Below are positions 507-39,426 of a stretch of DNA of 39,864 nucleotides, in pieces; position 1 is the stretch's first letter, and every line of letters starts with the position of its first letter. Source of the DNA: a virus; the IMG/VR virus record IMGVR_UViG_3300037189_005706, positions 1-39,864 of that record. One strand, written 5' to 3'. The notes under the pieces were generated by a model. That model saw only the letters and a list, made by a program, of their open reading frames with translations, was not told where the DNA came from and searched no databases. Both the position numbers and the translations under genes were made by a program.

Positions 507-545
507 GCGGGGCTTTTGTCTTTGGGGGTTGGTCAGAAATTTTCT

Positions 546-574
546 GATGACCGTTCTCTGGTCGGCAGTAGCGG
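546..574 (+). repeat. 29-bp direct repeat, copy A
   Basis: GATGACCGTTCTCTGG followed by TCGGCAGTAGCGG. It matches copy B (663-691) at 28 of 29 positions. Both copies are preceded by AAATTTTC one or two bases upstream (537-544 and 653-660), so the conserved block is nearly 40 bp. Confidence 0.9.
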
Positions 575-594
575 CGTTGCACCGTTGCCCTGAC

Positions 595-618
595 TGATAT
601 GCTGCGTGCAGCATATCA
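595..618. repeat. 24-bp near-perfect palindrome
   Basis: TGATATGCTGC (595-605) and GCAGCATATCA (608-618) are exact 11-bp inverted repeats around GT. It is placed between the two 29-bp direct repeats. The size and tight centre fit a dimeric protein binding site; there is no T-tract for a terminator. Confidence 0.9.
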
Positions 619-662
619 CTATTTTTGGCTTTCGTCAAACTCTTTTTTGCCTAAATTTTCCC

Positions 663-691
663 GATGACCGTTCTCTGGGCGGCAGTAGCGG
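663..691 (+). repeat. 29-bp direct repeat, copy B
   Basis: Second copy of the block at 546-574, with G instead of T at one position. The first 11 bases (GATGACCGTTC) recur at 12231-12241, directly after the -10 box of the replication-operon promoter. Confidence 0.9.
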
Positions 692-693
692 GG

Positions 694-1010
694 CGCGTTA
701 CGTTTTTGGGGGGCCGTGTGAAACTTCGCGTTACGTTTTTTAAGGGCAAAAACCTCTTGAAACCCGCATGGATGCTAGATTGGGAAATGTTATGCGTTTT
801 AAAAATTGAGAGTGGACTTTTTTTTCTGAGATCGGCAAGGCCTTCCAGCAAGTGCGACGCAACGAGGCAAATCTCCGAAGAAAAAAAACTCCTGTTCAAT
901 ATTATTTCTTAAAACTTTAAAACATAAACACCCCCAACCATCTTTTTCTTCAATCAAATCAACAACTTAGCGCGTTACGTTTTCAGATTATATGTAATCC
1001 CGCGTTACGT
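694..1010 (+). repeat. Four direct copies of CGCGTTACGT
   Basis: Exact copies at 694-703, 727-736, 971-980 and 1001-1010, the first three followed by TTT. They form two pairs with spacings of 33 and 30 bp, about three helical turns. The right-hand pair ends 7 bp before the -35 box of the promoter of the tandem ribbon-helix-helix gene, a position suited to a regulator. They could be operator half-sites or iterons. Confidence 0.85.
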
Positions 1011-1017
1011 AACACGC

Positions 1018-1046
1018 TTGACCTCACCATTACATATATGTTATGC
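1018..1046 (+). promoter_or_regulatory. Sigma70-type promoter of the ribbon-helix-helix gene
   Basis: TTGACC (1018-1023), a 17-bp spacer, then TTATGC (1041-1046; TATGCT with an 18-bp spacer is an alternative). The start codon of the regulator is about 38 bp further on. The CGCGTTACGT pair lies immediately upstream. Confidence 0.65.
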
Positions 1047-4404: not shown

Positions 4405-5469
4405 ATGTCAGAAGTATCTTTCGGTAAGAGCATCACGCTCAAGCAAGCGGCCAACTTGATCCGCACCAACCCAACCACCCGCTTCCTGTTGCAAGGCGAG
4501 CCCGGCATCGGCAAGTCATCACTGCTGGAAAACATTGCCGACTCGCTCGGGTTTGAGTATGCGTACATAGACGTACCGAACATGGACTTGGGCGACATTG
4601 CCATGCCCGTGATCGACCACGACACGAAGACAACACGCTACTACCCCAACGCACGCTTCCGCATCCACGAGAACAAGCCACTGGTCATCATGCTCGACGA
4701 GTTCACCAAGGGTGCCGACCCGGTGAAGAACATGCTGCACCCCATGCTTGAGAAGGCCAACCCACGACTCGGTGACATCCCACTGACCAAGGACACGATC
4801 GTATTCTTGACGGGTAACCTGAGCACGGACGGCGTGGGCGACTCCCTCAAAGCACACAGCCGTAACCGACTGGTTCCGGTGACGATCAGCAAGCCTGACG
4901 CAGACCAGTGGATCGACTGGGCCATCAATAAAGGCATCGAGCCCGAGGTGATTGCGTGGGTGAATCGTTTCCCTCATGCACTGGCAAGCTACACGGATGG
5001 TGGACAGGGCGACAACCCTTACATCTACAACCCAAGGAAGACACAGACAGCGTTCGTATCACCACGCTCACTTGAGACTGCATCTAACATTGTTAGGACA
5101 CGCAAGGACAACGACAGTGACGCAGTGATTGCCGCGCTGACTGGTGCGATCGGTGAGAGTGCAGCCCGTGACATGCAGGCGTACATCGAGTTCTCGGACC
5201 AACTGCCAACATGGGAGTCAACCATCGAGCATCCAAAGACTACGACTGTACCCACAAGCCCCGGCGCATGTGCCATCGTGGTGTTCGGTGCTATCGCCCG
5301 TGTGGACAAGACAACGATCGCTCCGTTCATGTCCTATCTGGAGAGGTTCGAGCCCGAGTGGCAAGCATGCTTTGCTATCAACATCGCACGTACACCATCC
5401 AAACAATCCATTGCGTTCAGTTGCAAGGCGTTCTCGGACTGGGTTGCGAAGAATCAAGACCTGCTTTGA
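4405..5469 (+). CDS. MoxR-like AAA+ ATPase
   Basis: The 354-residue protein has Walker A GEPGIGKSS (31-39), Walker B VIMLDE (94-99), a sensor-1-like TGN (136-138) and arginines in HSRNRLVPVTI (151-161) in the expected place of an arginine finger. This layout fits the MoxR/CobS-type AAA+ ATPases, which act as hexamers and work with VWA-domain partners to remodel proteins or insert cofactors. Its likely partner, a VWA protein with a metallopeptidase-like N-terminal domain, lies 0.7 kb downstream. First gene after promoter B, with AGAAGGAAA before ATG 4405. The C-terminal third is helical without a clear extra domain. A 13-bp palindrome copy (5084-5096) encodes Ser-Asn-Ile-Val-Arg inside it. ATPase assignment is firm; the substrate is unknown. 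Confidence 0.9.
   Translation: MSEVSFGKSITLKQAANLIRTNPTTRFLLQGEPGIGKSSLLENIADSLGFEYAYIDVPNMDLGDIAMPVIDHDTKTTRYYPNARFRIHENKPLVIMLDEFTKGADPVKNMLHPMLEKANPRLGDIPLTKDTIVFLTGNLSTDGVGDSLKAHSRNRLVPVTISKPDADQWIDWAINKGIEPEVIAWVNRFPHALASYTDGGQGDNPYIYNPRKTQTAFVSPRSLETASNIVRTRKDNDSDAVIAALTGAIGESAARDMQAYIEFSDQLPTWESTIEHPKTTTVPTSPGACAIVVFGAIARVDKTTIAPFMSYLERFEPEWQACFAINIARTPSKQSIAFSCKAFSDWVAKNQDLL
5084..5096. repeat. 13-bp palindrome copy 8, inside the ATPase gene
   Basis: Exact CTAACATTGTTAG, read as Ser-Asn-Ile-Val-Arg. Confidence 0.9.
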
Positions 5470-5470
5470 G

Positions 5471-5767
5471 ATGTTATACGCAACCATTGCATTTCAGAAC
5501 TACCCGCTTGGATGGGAGGAGCTTGAGTGGAAGATGCGCAAGCTCCGGCAAATCGTTTGGGGGTATGACTTGGACATAGCACAGCAGGTGTTTAGCCTGA
5601 AGGCTCCGCCGTATCGGTTCACTTTGATTCGGTGGGGCGTCAGGCCAAGCATACACACAGCGGCACCGAGAGAGGTGCTGTACGAAGGGCACGACTACTA
5701 CGCCGTGCTCGGATTCGTTACTTTGCTGTTGACAGCAGAGGAAGATAAACAACACATGAGGAGCTAA
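5471..5767 (+). CDS. Hypothetical protein between ATPase and VWA genes, 98 aa
   Basis: ATG 5471 is 1 bp after the ATPase stop, so translation is probably coupled; no good RBS is seen. The product has an amphipathic helix (WEELEWKMRKLRQIVW) and an aromatic-rich middle (HDYYAVLGFVTLLL). No family recognised. Its stop codon TAA (5765-5767) is the TAA inside the 13-bp palindrome at 5764-5776. Position in the ATPase-VWA operon suggests a role in the same complex, but this is inference. Confidence 0.65.
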   Translation: MLYATIAFQNYPLGWEELEWKMRKLRQIVWGYDLDIAQQVFSLKAPPYRFTLIRWGVRPSIHTAAPREVLYEGHDYYAVLGFVTLLLTAEEDKQHMRS

Positions 5768-5776
5768 CAATGTTAG
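5764..5776. repeat. 13-bp palindrome copy 9, provides a stop codon and SD
   Basis: Exact CTAACAATGTTAG. Its TAA ends the upstream gene and its final TTAG joins GGAG to form the ribosome-binding site of the gene at 5786. Confidence 0.9.
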
Positions 5777-5785
5777 GAGCAAGAC

Positions 5786-6160
5786 ATGGGGTATAGAAGC
5801 GAGATAACTGCGGTGTTCTACACCAACGAGAAAGACGAATGGCCGCTGCTCAAGCTGTTCGTTAACGAGAACTTTCCGAAGGACTTGGACAAATACTTAG
5901 AAGAGGAGTGCGAGGAGCCATGCAAGCGGCGGGGGTTCGTGTTCCGTGTGCCTCACTACAAATGGTACGACAGCTACCCCGAAGTGCAGGCGTTCAACGA
6001 GTTCGAGGATAAGTTCACAAGCATGGAGAAGTGCCAAGACGGTACGTGGGCTTGCGAGTTCGTACGTATTGGGGAAGAGACTAACGACATTGAAGAAAGA
6101 AATTCATTTAACGCTGACTACGTTATCAGAGTCGTTCGTCATATCGAAGTTGATTTTTAA
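5786..6160 (+). CDS. Hypothetical MGYRSE-type phage protein, 124 aa
   Basis: The N-terminus MGYRSEITAVFY resembles a recurrent group of phage proteins starting MGYRS, whose function is not established. The protein is acidic (EEECEEPC) with predicted alternating strands and helices and contains DGTWACEFVRIGEE and a C-terminal strand (YVIRVVRHIEV). TTAGGAG lies 7 bp before the ATG. It lies between the MoxR-like ATPase and the VWA protein in one operon. No catalytic motif is visible. Confidence 0.75.
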   Translation: MGYRSEITAVFYTNEKDEWPLLKLFVNENFPKDLDKYLEEECEEPCKRRGFVFRVPHYKWYDSYPEVQAFNEFEDKFTSMEKCQDGTWACEFVRIGEETNDIEERNSFNADYVIRVVRHIEVDF

Positions 6161-6168
6161 ACAAGGAG

Positions 6169-6181
6169 CTAACAATGTTAG
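6169..6181. repeat. 13-bp palindrome copy 10, contains a start codon
   Basis: Exact CTAACAATGTTAG. The ATG in its centre (6175-6177) is the start codon of the metallopeptidase/VWA gene, with AAGGAG at 6163-6168 just before the palindrome. Confidence 0.9.
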
Positions 6182-7377
6182 AGGAACGCAAGGTTCAGAA
6201 GGCCAAGATCACCTTGATGCGACACCCCAAGTTTGCATTGTTGCAAGGTATCTTGATGGTGGGCAAGACGAAGGTAGCCGACAACGTGCCGACTGCATGC
6301 ACCAACGGTCGCGATGAGATTTATGGTCGTGAGTTTGTGCGCAAGCTACGTGACTCCGAGCTTGCCTTTGTGATTGCACACGAGGCGGGGCACAAGATGT
6401 ACCGCCACATGACTACGTGGAAGAAGTTACATGACGAAGATCACGCGTTAGCCAATCGGGCTTGTGACTACGTTATTAACCTCATGCTCAGAGACCTCGA
6501 TCCGGGCGAGAACGTCATCGCCATGCCTATGTACAGGGATGGGCCACATGCTGGCAAGAAGATAGGCTTGATCGACGAGCGGTTCCGTGGCATGAACACG
6601 AAGCAAGTGTTCGACATTCTCAAGCAAGAGCAAAAGGATGGCGAAGGCGGCGGCGATGATGGCGATGGTATCGACGAGCACGACTGGGATGGTGCGAAGG
6701 AGATGACCGACGAGCAGAAGAAGGAACTGGCGCGGGACATTGACCAAGCTATCCGGCAGGGGTTGATGGCGCACCAGAAGATCAACGGCAAGGGTGCGGG
6801 TGGACTCGACCGCGAGTTGCAAGACTTGCTGGAGCCCAAGGTCAACTGGCGCGAGGAGTTGCGTGAGTATGTGAAAGCAATCTGCCGAGCCAAAGACACA
6901 TCAAGCTGGCGCAGGGTCAACCGGCGCTTCCTGTCTACTGGTATCTACATGCCATCAATGGTGGGTGAGAAGGTGGGCCACATCGTTGTGGGTATCGACA
7001 CATCGGGTTCGATCGGTGGGCCTGAGCTCGCAGAGTTTCTGTCCGAGGTAAAGGGTATCGCGGAAGAAGTAAACCCCGAGAAGGTTGACCTGATCTATTG
7101 GGACAGTGACGTGGCGGCGCACGAGGAGTATGCCGACGCTGACGTATCTAACATTGTTAGCTCTACCAAACCCAAGGGTGGCGGGGGCACAAGCCCAAGC
7201 TGCATGTCTGAGTATCTGAAGGAGAAGAAGATTGTTCCTGAGTGCATCATCGTTCTCACAGATGGCTATGTCGGCAATGACTGGGGCAGTGACTGGACTG
7301 CTCCGGTTATGTGGGCCATCACAGGAGGTAACACAAGTGTCGCTCCAAACGGCAAAACAATTCACATCAGCAACTGA
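6175..7377 (+). CDS. Metallopeptidase-like/VWA-domain protein (DUF2201 type)
   Basis: 400 residues in two domains. The N-terminal part has HEAGH (69-73) followed by ANRACDYVIN (93-102), matching the HExxH site and the N-x-A-x-D-x-x-x-N strip of the putative metallopeptidase domain that precedes DUF2201. A Gly/Asp-rich linker (158-170) follows. The C-terminal part is a von Willebrand A fold with a complete MIDAS: DTSGS (275-279), T339 in GGTSP and D363 in LTDG. In known families such proteins pair with MoxR-like ATPases, and one lies upstream in this operon. The start ATG is inside a 13-bp palindrome with AAGGAG 6 bp before it; another palindrome copy (7148-7160) is near the 3' end. Peptidase activity is not assured; the fold assignment is strong. 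Confidence 0.9.
   Translation: MLEERKVQKAKITLMRHPKFALLQGILMVGKTKVADNVPTACTNGRDEIYGREFVRKLRDSELAFVIAHEAGHKMYRHMTTWKKLHDEDHALANRACDYVINLMLRDLDPGENVIAMPMYRDGPHAGKKIGLIDERFRGMNTKQVFDILKQEQKDGEGGGDDGDGIDEHDWDGAKEMTDEQKKELARDIDQAIRQGLMAHQKINGKGAGGLDRELQDLLEPKVNWREELREYVKAICRAKDTSSWRRVNRRFLSTGIYMPSMVGEKVGHIVVGIDTSGSIGGPELAEFLSEVKGIAEEVNPEKVDLIYWDSDVAAHEEYADADVSNIVSSTKPKGGGGTSPSCMSEYLKEKKIVPECIIVLTDGYVGNDWGSDWTAPVMWAITGGNTSVAPNGKTIHISN
7148..7160. repeat. 13-bp palindrome copy 11, inside the VWA gene
   Basis: Exact CTAACATTGTTAG, read as Ser-Asn-Ile-Val-Ser between two MIDAS elements of the VWA domain. Confidence 0.9.
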
Positions 7378-11420: not shown

Positions 11421-11442
11421 CCAACCCGAAGCACTGCTATGA
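11227..11442 (+). CDS. Hypothetical protein overlapping the zinc-ribbon gene, 71 aa
   Basis: In the +1 frame relative to the zinc-ribbon gene, ATG 11227 (GGAG about 10 bp upstream) opens a frame giving a natural-looking basic sequence: SSRLNKSQREQLHALVTKAWWPFDRADPKVLNLMHLSIVERRK in outline (core LNKSQREQLHALVTKAWW). Its TGA overlaps the next ATG (ATGA at 11439), the coupling seen throughout this operon, whereas the zinc-ribbon frame stops 18 bp short. This gives about 190 bp of dual coding. No family recognised. Confidence 0.5.
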   Translation: MKTPTKSGAEKNAATHTYSSRLNKSQREQLHALVTKAWWPFDRADPKVLNLMHLSIVERRKPTTNQPEALL

Positions 11443-11642
11443 ACACAGAAGCAATCGAACCTAAAAAAGAACGCAAGGGGCGGGGCCCCGGCAAGAAGCC
11501 ACGCATGTTGTGCACAAGCCTACGGCTACCTGCGCATGTGCTGGACTACTTTGGCAAGCACCACGAGTATTCAAAACAAGCAAAGATCAGGGAGATTTTA
11601 GTGAACTACGTTAACCAACAGACTGGAGCAAACAATGTCTAA
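11439..11642 (+). CDS. Ribbon-helix-helix (BrnA-like) protein, 67 aa
   Basis: A basic N-terminal arm (KKERKGRGPGKKPR) leads into CTSLRLPAHVLDYFGKHHEYSKQAKIREILVNYV, a strand followed by two helices in the ribbon-helix-helix pattern, close to BrnA-type antitoxins and small phage repressors (strand TSLRLP, helix VLDYFG, helix KIREILVNYV). A dimer would bind DNA. No BrnT-like toxin gene is beside it, so a toxin-antitoxin role is unlikely. It overlaps the next gene by 8 bp. Confidence 0.65.
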   Translation: MNTEAIEPKKERKGRGPGKKPRMLCTSLRLPAHVLDYFGKHHEYSKQAKIREILVNYVNQQTGANNV

Positions 11643-12913: not shown

Positions 12914-13236
12914 GCGACAAAGAAGACTACGACCTGAACAACGGCGTGCAGATCATCCTGAACCGTATGAAGACCAACCCCGAAGAATTCTTTGATGATG
13001 GTGGTCGGTGGCGGTGGATTTTCAAGGACACACTGCGCGAGGTGATGACTGAGATCGAGAAGGCCGCTATCTTTGAAGGCCTCAAAGAAGTTCGACGTCT
13101 GGAGATTACATCTAGGGCAGCAGCCACAGTGCTCCGAGGCGAAGAGGACGAGAAAGAACAAGCGATAAAAAAAGAGTACTACAACCAAGCAATACCCAAA
13201 GCCGAGGGCGGACTAATCAAACGGGGGATTTTCTGA
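12910..13236 (+). CDS. Hypothetical helical protein, 108 aa
   Basis: ATGA-coupled to the VRR-NUC gene. The N-terminal part includes LNRMKTNPEEFFDDGGRWRWIF; a similar string, VARMHERPEDFEYGSRWRDLV, occurs in the next gene (13236), so the two may be paralogues or share a domain. The rest is a highly charged helix (EEDEKEQAIKKEYYNQ). The upstream part of the open frame (from 12292) overlaps the two preceding genes and is not used. No known family. Confidence 0.7.
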   Translation: MSDKEDYDLNNGVQIILNRMKTNPEEFFDDGGRWRWIFKDTLREVMTEIEKAAIFEGLKEVRRLEITSRAAATVLRGEEDEKEQAIKKEYYNQAIPKAEGGLIKRGIF

Positions 13237-13628
13237 TGGTCGAGAAATTCCTTATCCGTTTCTGCGCATCCGAAGTGCGCGTCATGGTTGCGCGTATGCA
13301 CGAGCGGCCCGAAGACTTTGAGTATGGCAGCAGGTGGAGAGACTTGGTAGAAATGAAGCATGGTTTCACTTGGGCCGAACGCAAGGTGCTGGACAAAGAG
13401 TGGGCCAAGTTCAAGAAGACCCAAAAGCGCCGTGAGTTGCTGAGCCTTATCACCAACGAAGTGATTAACCCGACACCGAAAGATAAGTGGGGCCTCTCAA
13501 CCCACGGTAACTTTACGACAGCTCTGCATCAACACGCCCAGCTTGACATGCAGATACAGCAACAACTAGCCCAGTACCGGCAACACGTTGACCCCCGTGT
13601 ACTGTACGGAAACGGAAGCTCCAAATGA
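13236..13628 (+). CDS. Hypothetical helical protein, 130 aa
   Basis: Starts by TGATG overlap with the gene before and ends by ATGA overlap with the DNA polymerase. Residues 18-40 (VARMHERPEDFEYGSRWRD) resemble the N-terminal motif of the upstream 108-aa protein. The middle is basic and helical (WAERKVLDKEWAKFKKTQKRREL) and the tail is Gln/His rich (HQHAQLDMQIQQQLAQYRQH). It may bind DNA or a replication partner but has no diagnostic motif. Confidence 0.7.
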   Translation: MVEKFLIRFCASEVRVMVARMHERPEDFEYGSRWRDLVEMKHGFTWAERKVLDKEWAKFKKTQKRRELLSLITNEVINPTPKDKWGLSTHGNFTTALHQHAQLDMQIQQQLAQYRQHVDPRVLYGNGSSK

Positions 13629-19458: not shown

Positions 19459-22314
19459 ATGCACAACTTCGACCTACTAGACGTGGTACTGCCGCCAGAA
19501 GGCCGGTACTGCGTGATGGGGATTAGTCGGTACGCAGACCAGCGGTTTGCAGACACAAGAGAAGAAGCTGAGGAGCTGATCCAAGAGTTCGTCCAGAACA
19601 AAATCGATGCCTATTTCGGGTGCGCCAAGTTTGGCCCCGAGAACAACCGCACGCACGAGAACGCCCAGTTCTTCAAGGCACTGTGGATGGACATCGACTG
19701 CGGCCCCACAAAGGGCGTGCCCGACGAGAAGGGCATCATCAAGGGCTATCTCGACCAACAGATCGGACTTACAGAGTTCTCCCGTTTTTGCAAGGCAGTC
19801 GGCCTACCCAAACCCATTCTGATCAACTCTGGTAACGGCATACACGCCTACTGGCTGCTTGATAAAACCATCTCCCGCCGCGAGTGGGAGCCACTGTCGC
19901 AACGCCTACGTGAGCTGTGCGAAGAAAACAATCTGATCGTTGACTCCTCCGTGTTTGAGGCGTCTCGGGTACTGCGCCCACTGAACTCGTTCAACTTCAA
20001 GGACAAGGCAAACCCCAAGCCTGTCGAAGTGTGGAACACAGACACCCCCCGCTTCACGTACGAAGAACTGAAAGAACTGCTCGGAGCGCCGGAGCCAAAA
20101 GACAGCATCCCTGACTTTCTGCCGCGCACGGTCAGCCCTATGATGGAAGCCCTGATGGGCAACAAGGTCAAGAAGTTTCAGACCATCATGATCCGCTCGG
20201 CCCAAGGCGACGGATGCAACCAACTGCTGCATTGCTACGAAAACCAAAACGACATAGAAGAGCCCCTGTGGTTCTCCGCGCTGTCGATCGCTGCACACTG
20301 TATTGACGGTCCGTGGGCTGCACATAAGCTGTCAGATCAATACGCAGGCTACGACGCTGCCGAGGTAGACCGCAAACTCGCAAACATTCACAAAAGCGGT
20401 GGCCCGCACCACTGCGCTACGTTCAAGAAACTTAACCCCAGCGGTTGCACCGGATGCCCCCACGAAGGGAAGATCAAGTCCCCGATCGTTCTGGGTATGG
20501 AGATAGCTGAAGCCGACGATGACGGCGAAGTTGAGGTGGAAGACGAAGACGGCGTAGTTGAAACGGTACGGATTCCAGAGTATCCGTTTCCTTATTTCCG
20601 TGGCAAGAACGGCGGTGTGTACAAGAAGGCTGAAGACGACGAAGAAGAGCCGACACTTGTGTACGAGCACGACCTGTATGTGGTCAAGCGCATGAAACAT
20701 TCAGAGATGGGCGAGGTCGCGCTGATGCGACTGCACCTTCCACAAGACGGGGTCAAAGAGTTTGCCGTCCCCGCAACGGCCATCGTGGTCAAAGAAAAAT
20801 TACGTGAGGTTCTGGCGCATTACGGTGTGGTGCCGACTACGAAGCAAATGACTTCTCTGTCGAACTACCTGACTACGTTCATCAAGAACCTGCAGTTCAA
20901 AAAGAAAGCTGAAATTATGAGGACACAATTTGGGTGGATCGACGACGACAGCAAGTTCATTCTGGGGGACCGGGAGATCACCAAGGACGGCGTTTTCTAC
21001 AGCCCTCCGTCTGCGACAACCAGAGACATATCGGCCAACATCCGCGCTGAAGGCAACATGGACGCTTGGAAAGATGTGTTCAACATGTACAACAGGCCGG
21101 GGCTGGAGCCCAATGCGTTTGCTGCGCTCACAGGCTTTGGTTCTCCGCTGCTCAAGTTCACCGGGATGAAGGGCGCGATCATCAACCTGATCCACAAAGA
21201 CTCCGGTACGGGCAAGTCAACTACGTTGTATGTATGCAACAGCATCATGGGGCACCCCTCTGAGCTTGCGTCTATCTGGAAAGACACAGCCAACTCCAAG
21301 ATGTTCCGCCTCGGTGTCATGAACAACTTGGCAAATACGATCGACGAGATCACGAACATCCCAGCAATGGAGTTCTCCGACCTGATCTACGGTATCAGTC
21401 AAGGCCGAGGCAAAGACCGCATGAAGTCGCAGAGCAACGAGATGCGGATCAACAACACCAAGTGGCAGGGCATCACGCTTACCTCATCGAACGCATCGTT
21501 CTACGAAAAACTGGGTGCGGCCAAGAACTCCCCCGACGGCGAGAACATGCGTCTGCTTGAGTACAAGATTGCCCCCACCACGGTGATCTCGGTAGCCGAG
21601 GGTAAGCACATGTTCGACCACCAGTTGATGCAGAACTTCGGCCATGCCGGGGAAGTCTACTTGCAGTGGCTCGTCAACAACTTGGAATCGGCAACCGACT
21701 TGGTCCGAAAAGTCCAAGCACGCATCGACAAAGACTTGCAGGTCACAGCCAAAGAACGCTTCTGGTCGGCCACAGCAGCTTGCAATATCGCAGGGGGCCT
21801 GATCGCCAAGAACCTCGGGCTCCACGACTACGACATGCGTGCGATCTACGAGTGGACGATCAAGATGCTCAACGAGATGCGCGGCGACGTAAAGCCTGCA
21901 GAGTTCAACTCAACCGCATCCGTCCTCGGCGAATACATCAACGCGCACATGGCAAACACGCTTGTGGTCAACGGTCTGAACGACGCTCGGACAAACCTGT
22001 CGTCGATGCCTCTTATGGAGCCGAAGGGGGAGTTGCTGGTACGTTACGAGCCAGACACAAAAGAACTCTTCATTGCGGCTAAGAGCTTCAAGGACTACTG
22101 CGTCAAGTACCAGATAAATTACAAGGACACGATCAGAGAGCTGACAACCACCGGGGCCTTCAAAGAAGCAACGAACAAGCGGATGGCCAAGGGCATGAAA
22201 GTGTTGTCTCCTGCTGTGCGCGTGCTGCGCTTCAACGCCGAGAACTTCGACTTTATCCACATCGACCAACCTGCGCCAAGCGATGAAGATCGAGACAGTG
22301 ACGTATCAAATTAA
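19459..22314 (+). CDS. Primase-helicase (AEP-like primase plus DUF927-type helicase)
   Basis: 951 residues. The N-terminal primase-polymerase region has a D-x-D motif (LWMDIDCG, about 74-81) and GNGIHAYW (about 125-132), like archaeo-eukaryotic-type primases. A cysteine/histidine-rich segment (CATFKKLNPSGCTGCPHEG, about 318-336) binds zinc. The C-terminal helicase has Walker A HKDSGTGKST (about 579-588) and a DEIT Walker-B-type site (NTIDEITN, about 626-633), with the surrounding IINLIHKDSGTGKS and GKDRMKSQ of DUF927/D5-like helicases. It would unwind and prime the phage genome. Start ATG 19459 is 3 bp after the HTH stop with no strong RBS, so coupling is likely. Confidence 0.9.
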   Translation: MHNFDLLDVVLPPEGRYCVMGISRYADQRFADTREEAEELIQEFVQNKIDAYFGCAKFGPENNRTHENAQFFKALWMDIDCGPTKGVPDEKGIIKGYLDQQIGLTEFSRFCKAVGLPKPILINSGNGIHAYWLLDKTISRREWEPLSQRLRELCEENNLIVDSSVFEASRVLRPLNSFNFKDKANPKPVEVWNTDTPRFTYEELKELLGAPEPKDSIPDFLPRTVSPMMEALMGNKVKKFQTIMIRSAQGDGCNQLLHCYENQNDIEEPLWFSALSIAAHCIDGPWAAHKLSDQYAGYDAAEVDRKLANIHKSGGPHHCATFKKLNPSGCTGCPHEGKIKSPIVLGMEIAEADDDGEVEVEDEDGVVETVRIPEYPFPYFRGKNGGVYKKAEDDEEEPTLVYEHDLYVVKRMKHSEMGEVALMRLHLPQDGVKEFAVPATAIVVKEKLREVLAHYGVVPTTKQMTSLSNYLTTFIKNLQFKKKAEIMRTQFGWIDDDSKFILGDREITKDGVFYSPPSATTRDISANIRAEGNMDAWKDVFNMYNRPGLEPNAFAALTGFGSPLLKFTGMKGAIINLIHKDSGTGKSTTLYVCNSIMGHPSELASIWKDTANSKMFRLGVMNNLANTIDEITNIPAMEFSDLIYGISQGRGKDRMKSQSNEMRINNTKWQGITLTSSNASFYEKLGAAKNSPDGENMRLLEYKIAPTTVISVAEGKHMFDHQLMQNFGHAGEVYLQWLVNNLESATDLVRKVQARIDKDLQVTAKERFWSATAACNIAGGLIAKNLGLHDYDMRAIYEWTIKMLNEMRGDVKPAEFNSTASVLGEYINAHMANTLVVNGLNDARTNLSSMPLMEPKGELLVRYEPDTKELFIAAKSFKDYCVKYQINYKDTIRELTTTGAFKEATNKRMAKGMKVLSPAVRVLRFNAENFDFIHIDQPAPSDEDRDSDVSN

Positions 22315-25500: not shown

Positions 25501-28500
25501 CCCAGTGCCGGGCAGGCTCTCGCCGCGAGGGACACGGGAAGTGAGCAAGGAGTCAGTGGCGATGATGAGGTCAGACAGGGCGTTGATGTCCGAGTCGTCC
25601 ATGCCGAACATGCGGCGGATGGAGTCCACGAAACGTGTGAAGAACGATGTGTCTTCCTGCACGCCCTCAGCAGACATGAGGAACTCTTGGAACTGCTCGT
25701 CCGACATGCCATACGCCAAGAACTCGCGGGGGTCTGCAACGATCTCGCCGTCTGTGCTCTCGTACAAATCAGCAAGCGCGTCGGTTACCTCACCGTTGTC
25801 GCTCATCTCAATCAGGCGGTCCTGCGCTGCCCGCATGGTGTCGAGCAGGTCCTGATACGCACGTACCAGTGGAGTGTTGAGGTTGATGCCCTTGTTGATG
25901 TATTCCTGCGCCAGTGCGATCTTCTTGACCGTGGCGGCGTGCAGCAGCTCGTGCAGCACAGTGACGTTGTTCACCCCTTGGGAGTTGCCGAAGGATGCAC
26001 CGCGCACGTAGACCACGCGCTTGCCGGTCTTGAAATTCTCGATATACAGAGCGCGTGACCGTTCCCACTGGGGTGCGTATTTGGCTTGTTGAAGCTGCGC
26101 AGGGATTTCAGAATCTTGCTCAAGCACAACGAAATCAACGTCACGCACAAAATTGCGCAGGCGCTGGGCGACGGCTTTCTGGAACCGGGTGCCAGTCTTG
26201 ATGATGTGGCCGATGGCCTGTGCGCCCGTCTTGAACGCGCCGAAGGCTGGGTCTGCTTTGGTAACCGCTGCGCCCTTGCGCTCAGTAGAAGATACTGGGC
26301 CCAGCAAGTTGGTCTTGTCCGAGAGTGCTTTCTTGGCGCGAGCTAGCCCACGCTTGATGTCGTCGATCTCGGTCTGAGGGATGTTGGCATCCTTGAGAAT
26401 CTTGCGTGCACGCTTGCCCTCTGGCTTGAGCCCGGACTCCTCAGACACGCGCAGGAGTTCTTTGACCGCGTTGCGGCGCTCGGCACGCTGGTCATCCTGA
26501 GCCTCTTTGAGTTCGGCCTCGTTGGCAAACTCGCCTTCGTCCAGCGGAGCTAGGGCTTTTTGCAGAGACGCCTCTGCTTTGTTTACCGCACGCTCGTGCC
26601 GACCACGAGAGGCTCGGTCCTCTTTGCGCTCTTTGTCTCGCTGAGCCTTTTGCTCGGGCGTGAGCGTTATCGGACGGCCTCGCTTGGTTGCTGGTGCTTC
26701 TTGTCCTTCTTCTTTTGCTTGGACGGTTTCAGTGGTCGCAGTGCCATCGGTCGTGGTTCCTCTTTGCTTGTTAACTTCGGCGTCAAATGCGCGGTTTGCA
26801 GCGTTGAGCAGACTGTCGTAGTCGGGGTCGGTTCTGAGCCCTTCTTCCGCCAGAGTGTCTGCCATGTTTGTGCGGTACGAATCTAGCGCTTCATCGAGAT
26901 CAGCGTACTCACCCACTTGATCAAACGCAGTGCTTGCGTTCCTACGAGCAATATCTTGGGCTTTGGCCTTCTTGGCTTCGTACGCCGCATTTTGCTCGTC
27001 TTCCGCTTTAATCCGCTCGGCTTCAGCTTCGGTCACTGCACTTGGCTGTGTTCCTTCTCTTTCAGCAACGACTCCAGCATCCTGTCGAGCAGGAACCACT
27101 CCATCTCGTTGAGCCCCTTCAGGTCGTTCGGCGGTGGAAAGCTCGTCGGCTGCAGGTGCAGATACTGTAGTGCTGACTCCACTTGGCTCTGTGTCAGGTC
27201 TTGCAACATCTTGTCTCCCTTCAGTTGGCGCACTCTTGCTCCGATCCAAAAATAGTTGAGCCTGAACGCGAGCTTCGTCCTCGGTCAGCCCTTGGTCGAT
27301 AAATTCTGTGGTGAGGGACTCCAGTGTCGGAGGGGCCTCGCGGCTAATGATCGCCGACGGAGCCTGCACTGGCTGCGTGATGACGGGCTTTTCTCTGTCG
27401 AGACGCATCTGGGCCAACACACGCGCTTCTTCTTCCGGCAAGCCTTGGTCAACGAGCTCGGCAGTGAGCGACTCCAGTGTCGGTGCCGCTTCAACATCCG
27501 TGGGTTCTACAGTAGGAGCAACGGTTGTTTCGGCAGGTGTTTCATCCACGACAAACTCGGCCTCAGCTTCGGCTGCTTTTGCGGCTTCTGCATCTTGCTC
27601 GGCAACAGTCCGACGCGCCAGCATCTCGGCGTCGTCCTTCATCATGCCCATGCCACGGTACTTCTCGGTCAGCTCGGCGGTGCGGGTCTCGGCGGTGGGT
27701 GTTTCTGCTTCGACTTCCCAGTCGCCCATCTCGGGCTCAACCCGCTCTTTGGTTTCCGCAGGCTGTGCTTTCTTTGCGTCGCGAGCCGCTGCACGCGTTT
27801 GCGTATAGACCTCTAAGGGCGCAGTGCCAAGACCGCCGAAGGCTTCGGCCAAGATTTCTCCGGGCTTACTAACTTTCCCTTCGGTTGCCACTTGTGCAGC
27901 AGCCTCGAACCCGCCACCGCCAACTGCCTGAGCGCCAACTTGCGCACCGATGTTAGTAACGTTCTTAGCTACGGGGCCCGTGATTCGTTTCGGCACCAGA
28001 GTCTTGCTGGCTAGCCCACCCAAGAACAAGTCCCCTGCACCGATGATGCCCGCTCGTGTACCCGCTTTATTCACGCCCTCGCGCAGCAGCTCTTTGTTTT
28101 CAAACAGCGCAGCCATTTGCTTGGGGTCGGTTGTGTCGATCCCGTTGTCTCTTGCGAACTCCAGAAAGGAGTTACCAAACTCGACACCGAACGAGCTACC
28201 ACCTAACACAGCCGCCCCAAGTGCGGGGTTTATAACGCCAGCGATCAAGCCGGGAACTGCCGTCGGCAATGACTGCGCCGTGAGGTTGGCAACAATGTTT
28301 ACTGGGTCTTTGGCGAAAGTTTTGAAGCCTTCTGAAAAGGTCTTGGCTTCGCTCAGATCGCGAACGCCCGAATAGGTTGGAGCCCCCTGCAGTTCTTTTT
28401 GCTTTGCCGCCAAGTCTTTGAAATACGTGCCTTGTCGGTTGGTGTAGAAGTCAAGCGTCTTGCGCAAGCCCTGCGCTTCTCTGGACTCGCCTTCGCCTTT

Positions 28501-38231: not shown

Positions 38232-38738
38232 TTAACTTAGGAACAGCGCAATCTCGGCTTCCCGGCGCTTGACGAGTCCCGGCAGGACTTTACCCCCGCC
38301 CTTGGTCCAAGCCCGGAATGCGTCGGCTGCACCCTCCCAGTCGCCCCGGTTGGCTCTCATGCGGATCGTGCTGCGTTGGAGGTTGCCGCTGCCTATGTTA
38401 TAGGCCAGACATACCAGAGCGTCAAAGCGGCCTTGATACCCAGAAACGCCGGGAACAAGTCGTAAAACAGCACGCTCAAAAGTTGCGAGGTCAGCCTTGA
38501 ACATCTCAGCCAATTCTTCTTTGGACCAGACACGGTTATCCTCCGGGCGTAGCGGGTATTCTTTTCGAATCATAGGCACGTCCTTGCCTTCGACGCGCAC
38601 CATTGGCAGCCTGATCTGATCTTGGTATAAGACGGTTCCCCATCCACAAGTCCAAATGTGCGCCGGGCACAAATAAGGCCGGTTGCGAAAACCTTCAAAC
38701 TTGTGCATCAAATGCAAGCCAGCATCAGAGGTTTTCAT
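38232..38738 (-). CDS. Phage endolysin, GH24 lysozyme
   Basis: 168 residues. E15 in HKFEGFR, then x8, C24, then x5, T30 in WTCGWGT, the catalytic E-x8-C/D-x5-T arrangement of phage-21-type and T4-type lysozymes, with CLAYNIGSGN and VLPGLVKRREAE also in the family pattern. It cleaves the glycan of peptidoglycan. There is no signal peptide or signal-arrest-release segment at the N-terminus, so a canonical holin is needed, and a holin-like gene lies upstream. The 14-bp overlap with the GIY-YIG gene is unusual and suggests the nuclease inserted just before the ATG. Confidence 0.93.
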   Translation of the reverse strand: MKTSDAGLHLMHKFEGFRNRPYLCPAHIWTCGWGTVLYQDQIRLPMVRVEGKDVPMIRKEYPLRPEDNRVWSKEELAEMFKADLATFERAVLRLVPGVSGYQGRFDALVCLAYNIGSGNLQRSTIRMRANRGDWEGAADAFRAWTKGGGKVLPGLVKRREAEIALFLS

Positions 38739-39426
38739 AAAAGCTCCAACCGTTCCGTTGCATCATTCTGCGGAAAGTGGGTGTTGATACTTGGTAGTGC
38801 TGGGCTGCAACATCAAGTCCAAAAAAGCACGCCGTATCCGTGCATACCGTTTTTGCGCGGCAACGATTGCCCTTTTTTGCCAAAGACTGCTTTAGACGGG
38901 TTTCCTGAGACGCCACGTTTCCAAGGTTTGTGGGAGCTTGGATGGCACGTTTTGCTTTGATCTTGGCCTTTGCTTCGTTGGTATGTTTTCGTCCAAGTTG
39001 CGGGCTTTGCATACCCTCTTGATAACGTTTTTTCAAAGATTCTGAAATTAGCTTTCGTTGCTCTGGCGATCTAAATGCGCCCGAGTTCTTGATGCCAATC
39101 TTTTGTTTTGTGGTCTGATCAAGCGGCCTACCAAGCCGATGGAGATGATCTGCTCTTTTTGATGCGTTGTAGAAGTCATCATGCCAAATATCAAGCATGG
39201 CCTGCTCAAGTGCCTGCGCCTCTTCGCGTGTTGCGCATTCCGCAAGAACACGAAACTGAAACTTTTTTTCTCCGTGCAGGCTAAAAGAACTTTGAAGATG
39301 TGGGCAGTGGTGCTTGCCGCGCTTCAAAAAAGATGCGTGGCATAAAAAGCGTTTCTTTACGTTCTTGCTGCTGCCAACATAGGCCTTGTGGGCTGCAACG
39401 TTGACAATCGCGTAGACCCCAATCAT
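38725..39426 (-). CDS. GIY-YIG homing endonuclease with NUMOD repeats, 233 aa
   Basis: G3-V-Y5 and Y16-V-G18 form the GIY-YIG core, with R26 and E74 as the expected catalytic residues. The middle has NUMOD3-like elements (PEQRKLISESLKKRY and HTNEAKAKIKAKRA), and the C-terminus (FFGLDVAAQHYQVSTPTFRRMMQRNGW) looks like a NUMOD1-type helix-turn-helix. This is a free-standing SegA-type homing endonuclease. It is wedged between the holin and endolysin with an ATGA overlap to the holin and a 14-bp overlap with the endolysin, so it can spread without breaking the lysis genes. Confidence 0.93.
   Translation of the reverse strand: MIGVYAIVNVAAHKAYVGSSKNVKKRFLCHASFLKRGKHHCPHLQSSFSLHGEKKFQFRVLAECATREEAQALEQAMLDIWHDDFYNASKRADHLHRLGRPLDQTTKQKIGIKNSGAFRSPEQRKLISESLKKRYQEGMQSPQLGRKHTNEAKAKIKAKRAIQAPTNLGNVASQETRLKQSLAKKGNRCRAKTVCTDTACFFGLDVAAQHYQVSTPTFRRMMQRNGWSFYENL

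Follow-up and report, generated by a model that had tools for sequence, protein, structure and literature searches.

Positions 437-1084 of the window (the whole 39,864-nt stretch analysed here) probably form the iteron plus AT-rich replication origin of this phage, placed just before the early operon. The locus is most likely both the start site of DNA replication and the site where the early genes are switched on, and its arrangement is best read, with fair though not high confidence, as an iteron-type origin with embedded promoters, for which we infer binding, melting and initiation from the sequence. The initial annotation had left the choice between an iteron origin and a switch region open; comparison with relatives favours the origin, and a control component is present as well. 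The origin is preferred to a pure switch because the iterons are conserved and adjoin the least stable DNA in most full genomes, and also because of the IHF-like 13-mer, the synteny with phage KPP25 and the DUF927 helicase of an initiator type.

At 99.997% identity the window matches part of a record of 62,271 bp with a 123-bp end repeat, from which we conclude that the phage genome is closed, with 62,148 bp. The nearest named phages, RHph_TM3_14A, KPP25/phiR18 and Rollin, are distant (DNA polymerase identity 32-37%). Late genes are transcribed leftward and early/replication genes rightward, and the repeat region is found about 1.3 kb rightward of this divergence, with two small early genes followed by a terminator in between. 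The region, earlier described as 540 bp without genes, is indeed gene-free, but it really extends from about 437 to 1084. A mechanical ORF at 664-912, which runs through the repeats, was rejected as a gene, as it stops early in relative L004 (CCC GCA TGA, by eye). Elsewhere in the window, a MoxR-like ATPase and metallopeptidase/VWA pair (4405-7377) is strongly conserved in the clade and also present in RHph_TM3_14A, and was not found in KPP25 or Rollin; a GIY-YIG homing endonuclease (38725-39426) is inserted amid late/lysis genes. The features of the region and the proteins discussed with it are as follows.

437-1084, no strand: gene-free origin-like/control region, no conserved ORF, module order kept at the same locus in relatives
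454-478, plus: intrinsic terminator of the preceding genes, 7-bp GC stem followed by TTTTTT
494-506, no strand: dispersed palindrome CTAACATTGTTAG, exact copy, left border of the region
546-574, plus: 29-mer, copy 1
595-618, no strand: 24-bp palindrome, operator-like, also terminator-like for plus-strand transcripts
610-638, minus: predicted sigma70 promoter directed leftward, TTGACG-17-TATGCT, with the -10 lying within the 24-bp palindrome
663-691, plus: 29-mer, copy 2
694-703, plus: iteron 1, exact CGCGTTACGT
727-736, plus: iteron 2, exact CGCGTTACGT
762-799, plus: element ACCCGCATG-N4-CTAGA...TGTTATGCG, conserved in relatives and similar to KPP25's 3 x 49-nt repeat
869-968, no strand: AT-rich stretch and candidate unwinding element, the 100 bp of lowest stability in the 62-kb genome
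957-969, plus: 13-mer AATCAACAACTTA, matching the IHF consensus, sole copy in the genome
971-980, plus: iteron 3, exact CGCGTTACGT
1001-1010, plus: iteron 4, exact CGCGTTACGT, overlapped by an inverted fifth copy with one mismatch (1007-1016)
1018-1047, plus: predicted early promoter TTGACC-18-TATGCT, adjoining the right-hand iteron pair
1085-1525, plus: regulator with two ribbon-helix-helix-like motifs, by sequence only, confined to close relatives and a few others
1113-1125, no strand: dispersed palindrome CTAACATTGTTAG, exact copy, inside the start of gene 1085
19459-22314, plus: 951-aa primase-helicase with DUF927 (Pfam, 1.6e-27; PDB matches 5dgk and 8tch), candidate initiator

The four exact iterons stand in two pairs, 33 and 30 bp apart, just as first noted, and the window holds no further exact copy. 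When the 514-bp core was simulated 2000 times (Markov-2), no run contained more than one exact CGCGTTACGT. The hexamer GTTACG was seen five times in the core compared to 0.28 expected, a count not reached in any of the 2000 simulations, and it is enriched 20-56-fold in the core of seven of the nine full genomes. In G005 and G007 the enrichment is weak and GTTAT-like repeats are found instead. As in iteron origins, several direct short repeats are clustered in non-coding DNA, with an AT-rich, easily unwound segment next to them. One sub-clade has its right iterons in inverted orientation, which makes the core roughly symmetric. Contig L131 (G005) carries a tandem GCCTATTTTTTAAGCA array inside its origin-like region, at about 13110-13290; other relatives have single copies.

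That an AT-rich stretch lies near the repeats had also been recognized before, and the comparison extends this observation: in seven of the nine full genomes, KPP25 included, the core contains the 100 bp of lowest stability in the whole genome, and it ranks second in G002 and third in G006. AT-richness would, however, be expected of gene-free DNA ahead of an early operon in any case, which counts against the origin. Beside the AT-rich stretch an IHF-type 13-mer match is present in 39 of the 56 loci and is nearly unique per genome, with AATCAANNACTTA occurring as a single copy in G001, G003 and G007. About half of the loci with a 13-mer have two matches around the AT-rich stretch, approximately 180-210 bp apart and in varying orientation. 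DnaA boxes, which are common but not universal in iteron-type origins, were not found in the window core; G002 and KPP25 have one each.

Direct repeats, an AT-rich unwinding element and an IHF-like site characterize the iteron origins of plasmids. The region shares all three with them (reviewed in PMC4980987), whereas neither a RepA/TrfA-type initiator nor a DnaA box was found here. A relationship to plasmids was considered and dismissed, as only two weak, unrelated matches were obtained.

For the comparison, a scan with the early ATPase yielded 80 related contigs, in which 56 loci cover the region (window included, near-duplicates counted). The order of modules is highly regular across the loci and is found at the same genomic place in about 55 related contigs. 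From the left, a dispersed palindrome, two 29-mers, the left GTTACG iterons and the ACCCGCATG or 13-mer element are followed by the AT-rich stretch and then usually by the 13-mer (AATCAANNACTTA, IHF-like) and the right iterons. The Pseudomonas phage KPP25 (Kochitakasuvirus), with a DNA polymerase 36% identical, is too diverged for DNA alignment. Its syntenic gap (26218-26895) is likewise a gene-free gap of the early region with GTTACG repeats (8 sites), contains the least stable DNA of its own genome and carries an ACCCGC(A/G)TG...CTA element. In contrast to the window, the iterons of KPP25 are set as three 49-nt repeats ending in TGTTACGAAATTTTTT, the 29-mer, 13-mer and dispersed palindrome are missing, and the helicase is of the DUF5906 class. 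No description of an origin for the KPP25 group was found in the open papers. In the Rhizobium phage RHph_TM3_14A a comparable 770-bp gap holds the three least stable windows.

A candidate for the protein that binds the iterons is the 951-aa DUF927 primase-helicase, which matches solved SCCmec and pathogenicity-island helicases (PDB 5dgk, 8tch). The DUF927 helicase class is related to the Rep of SaPIbov1 and contains self-loading initiators that recognise short iterons; SaPI Reps recognise the iterons at their own origins through the C-terminal domain, and for Cch2 binding to such repeats has been demonstrated (PMC7581432). Like the SaPI/SCCmec origins with their Rep/Cch helicases, the window has short iterons, and like those elements, whose helicase is a self-loading initiator, the phage encodes a helicase of the DUF927 or D5 class (PMC7581432). 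The SaPI/SCCmec origins lie directly downstream of rep, whereas here 18 kb separate the region from the helicase gene, and the iteron sequences are unrelated. Iteron binding by the phage protein is a prediction. The assignment of the 951-aa protein as initiator is uncertain because iterons and protein occur apart: KPP25 has the iterons without the protein (its ORF056, a DUF5906 protein, is probably of the other helicase class), and Rollin and RHph_TM3_14A have the protein without the iterons. Either the binding specificity has changed or another protein binds GTTACG. AlphaFold (AF2) predictions for both the helicase and the 1085 protein, with a mean pLDDT of about 42, were too poor to define a DNA-binding domain. 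In RHph_TM3_14A (L148, 42239-45000) a protein annotated as 'putative integrase' carries DUF927 and is a homologue of the primase-helicase; it has probably been annotated wrongly.

The region does have a control component, consisting of the terminator, the predicted leftward promoter under the palindrome and the predicted early promoter at 1018. It is nevertheless unlikely that the region is mainly a transcriptional switch, in which iterons, palindrome and 29-mers would be operators or activator sites for the rightward early promoter and the leftward promoter toward the late genes. Such a switch would fit three promoter-like sites (610-638, minus; 1018, plus; 1561, plus), an inverted iteron half-site adjoining the -35 at 1018, dispersed palindromes on both sides and the vicinity of the early/late divergence point. 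The right-hand iteron pair does abut the promoter of the regulator, as had been reported. The suggested tie between the repeats and the 1085 regulator did not hold, however, since relatives lacking the 1085 gene keep both iteron groups, with the right-hand pair about 200-300 bp from any promoter, and the iterons were therefore rejected as operators of the 1085 protein. Both groups are retained where neither an adjoining promoter nor gene 1085 exists, and a switch leaves the location of the genome's least stable DNA unexplained.

The 24-bp palindrome bears on the same question. It was confirmed with its 11-bp arms as TGATATGCTGC-GT-GCAGCATATCA, and no other palindrome in the window combines perfect arms of 11 bp or more with a centre no longer than 4; ten Markov-2 simulations of the window gave one such palindrome in total, and a chance origin is unlikely. 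Its arms co-vary in relatives (TGATATGCTGC, TGATAGACTGC, CGATACACTGC, TGCTACACTGA). In favour of a switch, the palindrome sits on a -10 whose -35 is conserved: its minus strand carries the -10, with a -35 17-18 nt away, in six cases, the spacing being 17 nt as in the window in L010, L036, L065 and L068 and 18 nt in L042, while L044 has the palindrome and no clear promoter. Against a switch, palindrome and promoter are missing from many relatives. Within an iteron-type origin the palindrome would be an optional operator on the leftward promoter, not part of the core.

The two 29-bp direct repeats, 28/29 identical as described, remain 89% identical when extended to 38 bp. They represent a bipartite motif, roughly ACCAGTTC-(7-12)-GGTAGC, with all copies on the same strand; two or three copies are present in 46 of the 56 loci, one in 3, and none is recognisable in 7. 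In complete genomes with a recognisable 29-mer the motif is confined to the repeat region, and the pattern tested was absent from 84,980 bacterial genomes, and a host attachment site was rejected on that ground. A sigma54 promoter was discarded because the GG-GC spacing is 9 and not 10 (by eye). An RNA hairpin was rejected as well, since variants break the possible stems (inspection), and this also speaks against a structured non-coding RNA encoded by the region. Such an RNA is highly improbable: a T8/A8 inverted repeat at 814-892 is partly conserved in L004 and L090, but no Rfam family reached its gathering score.

That the terminase uses the 29-mers as its packaging (pac/cos) signal also seems quite improbable; origin and packaging site would in that case adjoin. 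The terminase gene starts about 1.3 kb left of the 29-mers. A motif that the genome carries only here, twice and on the same strand, and whose tested pattern is absent from the 84,980 bacterial genomes, would suit such a signal. Contig ends of relatives accumulate immediately to the left of the 29-mers: two 500-bp bins hold 11 of the 49, with hazards of 0.14 and 0.10 compared to usually 0.03. This is suggestive only, and local sequence diversity also yields assembly breaks. Moreover, the spacing of the 29-mers varies from 43 to 242 bp, and the 7 loci without a recognisable copy argue against packaging. Beside an iteron-type origin the paired 29-mers would be a conserved extra element.

The window holds 14 exact copies of the 13-bp dispersed palindrome CTAACAWTGTTAG (CTAACA-W-TGTTAG) and the whole genome 16, with 0 expected. 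The window copies start at 225, 494, 1113, 1659, 2074, 2756, 4348, 5084, 5764, 6169, 7148, 8391, 9073 and 12148, all in the first 12 kb and none in the other 27 kb, and all 16 genome copies lie in the stretch from the divergence point to the middle of the early region. Most relatives have 5-16 such sites, with a 1-nt or 2-nt centre depending on the clade. A 67-aa ribbon-helix-helix-like protein (11439-11642), conserved in both sub-clades, is a candidate for binding CTAACAATGTTAG. A link of the centre length to one protein was discarded, as this protein occurs in both groups with no strict residue signature. The sites resemble the stoperators of cluster A mycobacteriophages, 13-bp sites spread genome-wide with a motif that varies between relatives (PMC6550527), in being many dispersed copies of one operator-like site. 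Stoperators are one-directional, whereas the sites here are palindromic apart from the centre base, not asymmetric along transcription, and restricted to the early region, and no evidence of lysogeny was found. RHph_TM3_14A has an analogous operator-like set of other sequence, GTTACC-N6-GGTAAC; 45 kb contain 14 copies of it, or 23 when the shorter TTACC arm is allowed.

The GC skew, suggested earlier as a check, has its whole-genome minimum at window position 2013, close to the region, but it follows gene direction. The third-position skew of late genes gives no replication signal and does not shift at the position opposite the core, and GC skew was therefore discarded as origin evidence.

In the sequence, two GTTACG groups flank the DNA that melts most easily in the genome, an IHF-like bend site adjoins the right group and a terminator insulates the region on the left, an order kept across the clade. 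For an iteron-type origin the following course can be proposed. The DUF927 primase-helicase, possibly with host IHF, would bind the iterons, open the AT-rich stretch, load there and prime synthesis, and transcription from nearby promoters may aid or regulate opening. A more far-reaching proposal, which we regard as speculative and rather doubtful, is a composite origin new to description in a large phage clade, in which the paired ACCAGTTC...GGTAGC 29-mers would couple initiation to packaging or partition and flanking CTAACA-N(1-2)-TGTTAG sites would link the region to a genome-wide early-gene operator network read by the ribbon-helix-helix protein.

To our knowledge, few phages apart from the classical models have a known replication origin. 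For a large group of uncultured phages the region provides a sequence-defined, modular origin candidate, and it brings out three conserved motifs, the 29-mer, the 13-mer and the dispersed palindrome. It may also supply the DUF927 primase-helicases of phages with an iteron partner, and the matching origin candidate in the cultured phage KPP25 is directly testable there.
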